From Pseudomonas fulva (lineage in GTDB: Bacteria; Pseudomonadota; Gammaproteobacteria; Pseudomonadales; Pseudomonadaceae), in NCBI RefSeq assembly GCF_015680705.1, contig NZ_JADNYP010000009.1, positions 124,001 to 188,000 on the forward strand: a DNA stretch of 64,000 nt. Direction: 5' to 3'. This document shows, piece by piece, positions 28,659 to 44,566 of the stretch (position 1 is its first letter; each line of letters opens with the position of its first letter). The translations under genes and the position numbers were made by a program. The notes beneath the pieces were generated by a model. That model saw only the letters and a program-made list of their open reading frames with translations, made no database searches and was not told the origin of the DNA.

Positions 28659-29006
28659 AACGCGTCTATTCCTGCGCTCGCTGCGCGTCCAAGAGTGATC
28701 GACCCAAACGAACAGTCAATGAATCACTACTTTTAACATTACTACCCGCCAGTCGTCATGGCGCAATGCCAGCCAAGGAAGCAACCAGCGGCGGTCGGCC
28801 CATGGCTGTAATTTGAGCATGCATTTTCTTCCATGACAAAGGCTTATGCTGTGTTTTTGCACAGGTGTGACAGCAAGTCCGCCAGCAAGTTGCGCCAGCA
28901 TGCCTTCGTGCCCCGCGCCTGGTGGCCACCAATGCCTGCCTGGAGATTGACCTGCGCGCACGCGCAGGCCATGCTCGCCCCACCCCTCCCCCACCGCAAA
29001 AAGACC
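28659..29006. other. Divergent intergenic region between ftsK and aat
   Basis: No supportable gene was seen in these 348 bases. An 8-bp GC hairpin (CCTGCGCG/CGCGCAGG near 28951-28968) is present. A frame continuing upstream of aat has no family character. Promoters for both genes must lie here but I cannot place them with confidence. Confidence 0.5.
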
Positions 29007-40817: not shown

Positions 40818-41984
40818 ATGAATCCCGATACTCCACTTCAGCTTCTGGGTGGGCTGACCGCTCGCCAATTCCTGCGCGACTACTGGCAGAAGAAGCCCTT
40901 GCTGGTCCGCCAGGCCTTCACCGACTTCGAAAGCCCCATCGATCCAGACGAGCTGGCCGGCCTGGCGCTGGAGGAAGAAGTCGAGTCGCGCCTGGTCCTG
41001 GAGCATGGCGAGCGCCCCTGGGAGCTGCGTCGCGGCCCGTTTGCCGAAGACGCCTTCGCCGACCTGCCGGAGCGCGACTGGACGCTGCTGGTGCAGGCAG
41101 TCGACCAATTCGTGCCGGAGGTAGCCGAGCTGCTCGAACACTTCCGCTTCCTGCCCAGCTGGCGTATCGACGATGTGATGATCAGCTTCGCCGCCCCTGG
41201 CGGTAGCGTCGGGCCGCATTTCGACAACTACGATGTGTTCCTGCTGCAAGGCGTGGGCAAGCGCAACTGGAAGATCGGCCAGGTCTGCGACAGCGACAGC
41301 CCGTTGCTCGAGCATGCCGACCTGCGCATCCTGGCGGACTTCGAGCAGAGCGCCGAGTGGACCCTGGAGCCGGGCGACATGCTCTACCTGCCGCCGCGCC
41401 TGGCGCATTATGGCGTGGCCGAGGACGATTGCCTGACCTACTCGGTCGGTTTCAGGGCGCCGAGCGCGGCCGAAGTGCTGACCCATTTCACCGATTTCCT
41501 CAGCCAGTTCCTGCCGGACGAAGAGCGCTACAGCGACGCGGACGCCGAGCCGGTCCGCGACCCGCACCAGATCCAGCACGACTCGCTCGACCGCCTCAAG
41601 GCCCTGCTCGACGAGCACATGAATGACGAGCGACTGCTGCTGACCTGGTTCGGCCAGTTCATGACCGAACCTCGCTATCCGGAGCTGGTCAGCGGCGAGC
41701 CGCTGTCCGAGGAGGAGCTGATCGATACCCTGGAGCAGGGTGCGATCCTGATCCGCAACCCCAGCGCACGCCTGGCCTGGTCGGAAGTCGACGACAACCT
41801 GCTGCTGTTCGCCAGCGGCCAGAGCCGCCTGTTGCCGGGTCATCTTCGCGAGCTGCTCAAGCTGATCTGCGCGGCCGACGCTCTGCATGTGGAGAACATC
41901 GCGCAGTGGTTGGGCGACGAAGACGGCCTGACCTTGCTGTGCGAACTGGTCAAGCAAGGCAGCCTGGGATTCGCCAATGAATAA
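40818..41984 (+). CDS. roxA: Ribosomal oxygenase RoxA (YcfD-like), L16 arginine hydroxylase
   Basis: A 388-residue cupin (JmjC-like) 2-oxoglutarate/Fe(II) oxygenase. The facial triad is formed by His and Asp in GPHFDNYDVFLLQ and by a His in the LAHYGVAE segment. The N-terminal LGGLTARQFLRDYWQKKPLLVRQA is typical. The C-terminal dimerisation and winged-helix regions follow. It hydroxylates an arginine of ribosomal protein L16. ATG 40818 was chosen. It overlaps the GNAT gene by 8 bases. Confidence 0.92.
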   Translation: MNPDTPLQLLGGLTARQFLRDYWQKKPLLVRQAFTDFESPIDPDELAGLALEEEVESRLVLEHGERPWELRRGPFAEDAFADLPERDWTLLVQAVDQFVPEVAELLEHFRFLPSWRIDDVMISFAAPGGSVGPHFDNYDVFLLQGVGKRNWKIGQVCDSDSPLLEHADLRILADFEQSAEWTLEPGDMLYLPPRLAHYGVAEDDCLTYSVGFRAPSAAEVLTHFTDFLSQFLPDEERYSDADAEPVRDPHQIQHDSLDRLKALLDEHMNDERLLLTWFGQFMTEPRYPELVSGEPLSEEELIDTLEQGAILIRNPSARLAWSEVDDNLLLFASGQSRLLPGHLRELLKLICAADALHVENIAQWLGDEDGLTLLCELVKQGSLGFANE

Positions 41985-42426
41985 GATCAGCGTACGCCTG
42001 GCCGACTGGCAAAAGGACAATGCCGCCATCCGGCGTATTCGCGAGGCCGTGTTCGTTGCCGAGCAGCATGTGCCACCGGAGCTGGAGTGGGACGCCGAAG
42101 ATCCGACCGCCGTGCATTTCCTGGCCCTGGAAGGCGACTATCCGATCGGTACCGCGCGCCTGCTCGCCGACGGCACCATCGGGCGCGTATCGGTACTCAA
42201 GGACTGGCGCGGCCTGAAGGTGGGCGACGCGCTGATGCGGGCGGCAATCCTCGAGGCACAGCAACGCGGGCTCGAGCAGCAGATGCTCAGCGCCCAGGTA
42301 CATGCCACCGCCTTCTATCAAAGGCTGGGCTTTCGCGTAGTCAGCGAGGAATTCCTCGAAGCAGGCATTCCCCATGTAGACATGCTCCGCGACGACCTGG
42401 CCCTGCCGGACAGCCCAGGCGTCTGA
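41977..42426 (+). CDS. GNAT-family N-acetyltransferase
   Basis: A 149-residue acetyltransferase of the ElaA/GNAT type. The core contains IRRIREAVFVAEQHVPPELEWD and IGRVSVLKDWRGLKVGDALM, the acetyl-CoA binding motif region, and ends HVDMLRDDLALPDSPG. The substrate is unknown. It overlaps the roxA stop by 8 bases (ATGAATAA), so it is translationally coupled with roxA. A GC-rich hairpin (GACCAGCCCGC/GCGGGCTGGTC) follows without a T run. Confidence 0.83.
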   Translation: MNKISVRLADWQKDNAAIRRIREAVFVAEQHVPPELEWDAEDPTAVHFLALEGDYPIGTARLLADGTIGRVSVLKDWRGLKVGDALMRAAILEAQQRGLEQQMLSAQVHATAFYQRLGFRVVSEEFLEAGIPHVDMLRDDLALPDSPGV

Positions 42427-42509
42427 CCTGGACAACGACAGACCAGCCCGCATTGGCGCGGGCTGGTCTGCTGGCGTTGCGGCTGCGTCAGGCTCGGCCA
42501 CCAGCGAAG

Positions 42510-42525
42510 CTGTACATGCATACAG
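42510..42525. promoter_or_regulatory. Candidate LexA (SOS) box upstream of topB
   Basis: CTGTACATGCATACAG matches the gamma-proteobacterial LexA consensus CTGT-N8-ACAG exactly at both ends with an AT-containing centre (ACATGCAT). It is 74 bases before the topB start codon. A weaker CTGTACAG lies near 42569-42576. Confidence 0.55.
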
Positions 42526-42598
42526 ATAAAGCTTGCCTCCTCCCCACGCATTGCGCATGCTACCGAGCCTGTACAGAAGCTTCGGAACTTCCGCGCCC

Positions 42599-44566
<1,968 letters not shown>

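Follow-up and report, generated by a model that had tools for sequence, protein, structure and literature searches.

Does the LexA-like palindrome in front of topB, the gene for DNA topoisomerase III, mark this gene of Pseudomonas fulva as part of the SOS response, and what would LexA do from the place where the palindrome lies? We examined a window of 64,000 nucleotides (the whole stretch of DNA that was analysed), whose features around topB are collected in Table 1. A sequence-only reading had reported an exact match to CTGT-N8-ACAG in a 172-base gap between a GNAT-type acetyltransferase ORF (41977-42426), the upstream neighbour, and topB. Both the match and the gap were borne out, as the ORF ends at 42426 and the ATG of topB is at 42599. 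The placement upstream of topB also stood, while the distance of 74 bases given for it did not: 73 bases were counted between box and ATG, and the first base of the box lies 89 bases before the ATG. The inverted repeat 3' of the GNAT gene is possibly a terminator that insulates topB from the upstream gene; the terminator scan made no call at this repeat.

Table 1. Features at the topB locus, in window coordinates.
Feature	Coordinates	Strand	Basis
Perfect 13-base inverted repeat, 6-base loop, 3' of the GNAT gene	42439..42470	.	Repeat search
Candidate LexA (SOS) box, CTGTACATGCATACAG	42510..42525	.	Sequence (exact fit to the CTGT-N8-ACAG core), top matrix score in window, genus conservation
A+T-rich linker ATAAAGC, box to -35	42526..42532	+	Conserved in 114 in-register orthologues
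Predicted -35, TTGCCT	42533..42538	+	TTG at same spacing in 114/122 listed orthologues
Predicted -10, CATGCT, 17 bases past -35	42556..42561	+	CATnCT, each fixed base in 113/114 in-register orthologues
topB, DNA topoisomerase III, 655 aa	42599..44566	+	NCBIfam NF005829 (865 bits) and TIGR01056 (693 bits), both above cut-off

By itself, the CTGT-N8-ACAG rule is weak evidence. The window contains three matches against a mean of 0.70 in 100 shuffles, three of which also reach three, and the whole genome has 25 such sites against 17 for a reversed control pattern. The other two exact matches in the window are at 2133, inside a permease-like ORF, and at 28849, between ORFs. The box ahead of topB is the sole site in the window within three mismatches of CTGTATATATATACAG (shuffles gave none), and its score of 22.5 bits is the best in the window for a LexA matrix (runner-up, 13.1 bits), falling inside the range of the training sites, which are recA/recN/lexA-type boxes (15.0-27.3 bits). 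This matrix was symmetrised and built from 25 boxes, none of them a topB site: 19 distinct boxes from recA, recN and lexA1, and six from the genome itself. The upstream regions of recA, recN and lexA1 were drawn from 30, 30 and 21 Pseudomonas genomes, respectively (one more recA match and one more recN match had no locus and were left out), and boxes were present in 30/30, 29/30 and 21/21 of them, with two boxes each near lexA1. The six own-genome boxes were hand-picked from the genome's CTGT-N8-ACAG matches and precede a YebG protein, a DUF1654 protein, a dinB-like ORF (which we take to be dinB) and three uncharacterised ORFs. The TA that flanks several of the own-genome LexA boxes is absent at the topB box.

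Conservation was assessed by searching 149 genomes of the genus with TopB, and every genome gave some match. Among the matches listed, 122 were judged to be chromosomal orthologues (73-100% identity; L280 and L281 are partial), with one match at 37% identity (G146:C14) and a second fragment of G080 left out of this set; the remaining 27 genomes had either weak matches only (25) or a more distant copy (G071 and G078). The sequence-only reading had named absence of the palindrome from close relatives as a refutation. We applied this check, and close relatives do have the palindrome: in 116 of the 122 listed orthologues the 100 bases before the ATG contain a site scoring 14 bits or more, and six score below 14 bits. 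Over 50 dinucleotide shuffles, the number of such orthologues averaged 0.22 and never exceeded 2. The best matrix site lies at -92..-80 in 119/122 listed orthologues and, within 380 upstream bases, this site has all eight core bases in 89, seven in 27 and six in six. By comparison, topB copies of greater divergence (56-65% identity; n = 26), which are perhaps genes of mobile elements, had no box, the best score being 4.4 bits. A second, named set consisted of the 80 loci of highest similarity among 543 confirmed relatives, which is not an even sample (77 labelled Pseudomonas, one Azotobacter vinelandii, one a Pantoea sp. and one a Paucimonas MAG). All 80 have their best site at -93..-82, with eight core bases in 50, seven in 29 and six in one. 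Since only 31 of these 80 loci have the GNAT gene as immediate upstream neighbour, at a distance of up to 400 bases (L020, with just 202 upstream bases, has a neighbour that is not judgeable), while the box is present at all 80, the box travels with topB, and we rejected the possibility that it serves the GNAT gene or another variable neighbour as operator. Because conservation upstream of topB settles the question, we regard the palindrome, on sequence grounds, as a genuine LexA-type site that did not arise by chance.

The right end of the box reads CCAG in 20 of the 122 listed topB orthologues, which does not speak against LexA, as CCAG is also found in 27/30 recN boxes and 19/21 upstream lexA1 boxes; 16/30 recA boxes start with CTGG. 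The topB site belongs to the same 16-base sequence class as the Pseudomonas recA, recN and lexA1 operators, the CCAG variant of the right end included. The centre of the box is altered in A. vinelandii (L073) and P. sp. R5(2019) (L080), both of which keep CTGTAT/ATACAG. One feature is not explained by LexA alone, namely the asymmetry of the right half: the palindrome lacks its final G in 11/122 listed orthologues (nine in register, plus L279 and L281; examples are L105, L110 and L274), and the left CTGTA is invariant in all 114 orthologues that share the register of the promoter elements described below. Lineages that have lost the final G or score below 14 bits may no longer control topB through LexA; alternatively, the left half could have some other function there. 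At other genes, the uvrA/uvrB-type SOS operators of E. coli similarly combine a canonical CTGT half with an imperfect partner.

The position of the box relative to the promoter is less ordinary. TTGCCT-N17-CATGCT is predicted to be the topB promoter, a weak one of sigma-70 type, although the promoter consensus scan made no call at this pair. The in-register set of 114 of the 122 listed orthologues was selected by a TTG at fixed spacing, so the count for the -35 equals the selection rule. In these orthologues the order is gapless: CTGTAYATCCATACAG (commonest bases), ATAAA, two bases, TTGCC, 17 bases and CATnCT. The first A and the T of the linker are found in all 114 and the next three A in 110, 111 and 90, with ATTTT in place of ATAAA in a few variants; the linker is possibly an UP-like element. 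Seven bases separate the end of the box from the predicted -35, which puts the box centre at about -50 relative to the predicted start, and this spacing holds in 114/122 listed orthologues and in 80/80 named loci (best 80 of 543). The spacing is two bases longer in L233, L240, L255 and L279 and one base longer in L281. In three further orthologues (L276, L277 and L278), the LexA-like box of topB has moved with respect to the start codon: it sits at -54 in degraded form in L276 and L278, and that of L277 lies against the predicted -10 and start region, where a repressor classically binds. A -10 within the tail of the box (GATAAA) was also considered and set aside; the sequence 17 bases further upstream of it is not conserved, and therefore the downstream -35/-10 pair was preferred. 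Separately, a perfect 8-base palindrome, CTGTACAG, lies at 42569-42576 near the predicted topB start site and pairs with the left portion of the SOS box; it was considered as a second operator, but has no spacer and was not seen in 23 aligned relatives.

Given this predicted promoter, topB lacks the overlap with promoter or start region that is typical of LexA boxes, if not obligatory for them, L277 being the exception. The first possible start codon lies 17-54 bases from the first base of the box at eight other boxes of the genome, versus 89 bases for topB, and the recN and lexA1 boxes of the sampled Pseudomonas genomes start at most about 45 bases from the start codon, whereas the topB box is upstream of the predicted -35. 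Judged from these sequences, the operator position just upstream of the promoter is unusual, and with the likely -35 lying downstream of the box, a point that the sequence-only reading missed, simple promoter blockage should not be assumed.

Outside the family, we used two samples. The class-level sample was even: of 30 matching genomes other than our own, 24 contributed a single locus each (G335, G248, G212, G381, G224 and G355 were left out). A nearby LexA-like box was present at 3 of 23 topB loci outside the family (G295, G412 and G299) and at the same-family locus G318. In two orders outside the family, a box of at least 14 bits was found within 100 bases at 25/39 topB loci, covering 11 of 18 families, and the other 14 loci of these orders had no box; the 39 loci come from 45 matches, six of which had no locus. 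In 200 shuffles the number of loci with such a box averaged 0.145 and was never above 2, and stretches taken as 3' controls had it at 0/39. The proportion of 25/39 is not a class-wide rate, because the two orders were chosen for having a representative that already carried a box. Counted from the start of the profile match, which may be a few bases off the true start codon, 21 of the 25 boxes are at -24..-34 and four at -68..-83. As these boxes differ from the Pseudomonas one in sequence and place, either the link was retained with operators moved or it has several origins.

Published precedents agree that the association exists beyond Pseudomonas. EMSA showed binding of V. parahaemolyticus LexA to the topB promoter, which the authors do not regard as conclusive proof of regulation (PMC3323433), and V. 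cholerae topB (VC2043) is a known SOS regulon gene with a ratio of 4.8 with versus without mitomycin C (PMC5963079). Both resemble the present case in that topB has an upstream LexA site; however, Vibrio belongs to another order, and the Pseudomonas box starts 89 bases ahead of the ATG, on the upstream side of the predicted -35. In Shewanella piezotolerans WP3, the topoisomerase III gene is among the common up-regulated core LexA genes upon lexA deletion (PMC4471891), a case that differs in being deduced from a mutant transcriptome and in that the paper labels the gene topA. The literature that we searched, which did not include Abella 2007 (P. putida lexA1/lexA2) or Cirz 2006 (P. aeruginosa SOS), yielded no report of LexA control of Pseudomonas topB. 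The sequence-only reading had proposed a new link between DNA damage and decatenation in one species. That claim was overstated on both counts, since topB-LexA binding and induction in Vibrio and the Shewanella lexA mutant are published, and the site spans the genus Pseudomonas. The LexA assignment itself gained from the matrix score within the recA/recN/lexA range, the conservation in the genus, the absence from all 26 distant copies and the topB boxes in other families. What is new is the genus-wide conservation in Pseudomonas together with the unusual operator position; the SOS-topB link was already known in Vibrio.

On this evidence, we consider it likely that the palindrome is an operator of the canonical LexA, LexA1, kept for SOS control of chromosomal topB, with LexA repressing the gene and damage inducing it. 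The genome encodes LexA1, with both domains (PF01726, DNA-binding, and PF00717, S24), at C5:55220 and has a second lexA gene at C58:103051. Upstream regions of second lexA genes (n = 9) matched seven of the eight core bases in one case and had no match in eight, and the topB site does not appear to resemble the LexA2 motif. LexA1 and LexA2 regulons are described for P. putida (PMC3901139). In undamaged cells, a LexA dimer would sit at about -58 to -43, directly 5' of the weak promoter TTGCCT-N17-CATGCT, and would lower topB transcription, most likely by hindering the contacts of RNA polymerase with the A+T-rich DNA upstream of the -35. After damage, RecA would trigger the self-cleavage of LexA, the site would empty and Topo III would rise, which could help to resolve converging forks or recombination intermediates. 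As a LexA-type site is found in nearly all of the topB-carrying Pseudomonas examined, topB is probably damage-induced. Repression is the favoured sign because of the Vibrio data, the relocated box of L277 and the start-proximal boxes elsewhere. LexA binding, the sign and size of the regulation, the start site and the physiological role are what we infer.

The place of the box suggests variants in which LexA does more than block. In one, which we hold to be doubtful, LexA at an activator-type site near -50 beside an A+T-rich element would tune, and perhaps support, basal topB expression in addition to the release upon damage, an old SOS-topB operator having shifted out of the start region to the promoter's upstream side. 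If this is true, the move of the operator in the genus altered the kind of topB control and not its strength alone. It is improbable that LexA bound here acts outright as an activator or in a dual role from about -50, in which case topB would fall or would first need LexA. The fixed spacing of box and -35 and the weak promoter would suit this, and LexA activation is on record for recA of Rhodobacter sphaeroides (cited in PMC8565304). However, the spacing is longer in five of the listed orthologues and the box relocated in three, in L277 onto the predicted -10; other-family boxes lie near the start codon in 21/25 cases; and V. cholerae topB rises with mitomycin C (PMC5963079).

Improbable, too, is that the site belongs to another regulator, perhaps an activator that reads the asymmetric CTGTAYATCCATMCAG-ATAAA, and that its likeness to LexA sites is superficial. 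The left half and the start of ATAAA are indeed kept more strictly than the final base of the right half, and the position is activator-like. However, a search that allowed up to three mismatches placed the extended motif at topB in each of the 11 genomes (out of 24, ours among them) that had it, with one extra weak match in G002, so that no wider regulon is apparent; a MocR/GntR or other activator site was also considered, and the motif marked no other gene family in the 24 genomes. The changed centres of L073 and L080, with CTGTAT/ATACAG kept, the good fit to the LexA matrix and the LexA-type boxes at topB in other families also argue against another regulator. That the palindrome is a functionless product of chance is hardly credible: a window should hold 0.7 matches to the bare pattern by chance, and of the loci examined only 4/30 (own included) retain the second match, at 28849, but the conservation of the topB site (116/122 listed orthologues versus a shuffle mean of 0.22) contradicts this.

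Several other LexA-type boxes were seen along the way. The match at 28849-28864, CTGTGTTTTTGCACAG (13.1 bits), lies between an ftsK-like ORF on the minus strand and an aat-like ORF, presumably ftsK and aat themselves. Similar sites (13.1-17.5 bits) were present upstream of aat in four of the 30 loci (own included) and missing in 26, and the site can therefore be no more than a clade-specific candidate SOS box of ftsK, a gene that is SOS-regulated in E. coli. Elsewhere in the genome, two related small proteins beginning MNIDDTGFELG and MDIDTTGFELG are each encoded directly behind a strong LexA-type box (L135, G000:C59:193704-193719, and L128, G000:C4:128454-128469, respectively) and had no Pfam match over the cut-off. 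Counted from the first base of the LexA-type box CTGTATGTATATACAG (L129, G000:C5:149028-149043), a 101-aa ORF, which likewise matched nothing in Pfam, begins 38 bases away, and the box ahead of the DUF1654 protein is at G000:C4:64039-64054 (L127).

With the palindrome read as a LexA1 operator, topoisomerase III would be a likely SOS gene across Pseudomonas, a large and well-studied genus. The link between the SOS response and topoisomerase III recurs, in Vibrio, in Shewanella and, by LexA-type boxes, in several other gamma-proteobacterial families, if not in every lineage, and the upstream box of Pseudomonas topB would offer a natural test of LexA regulation from outside the core promoter.
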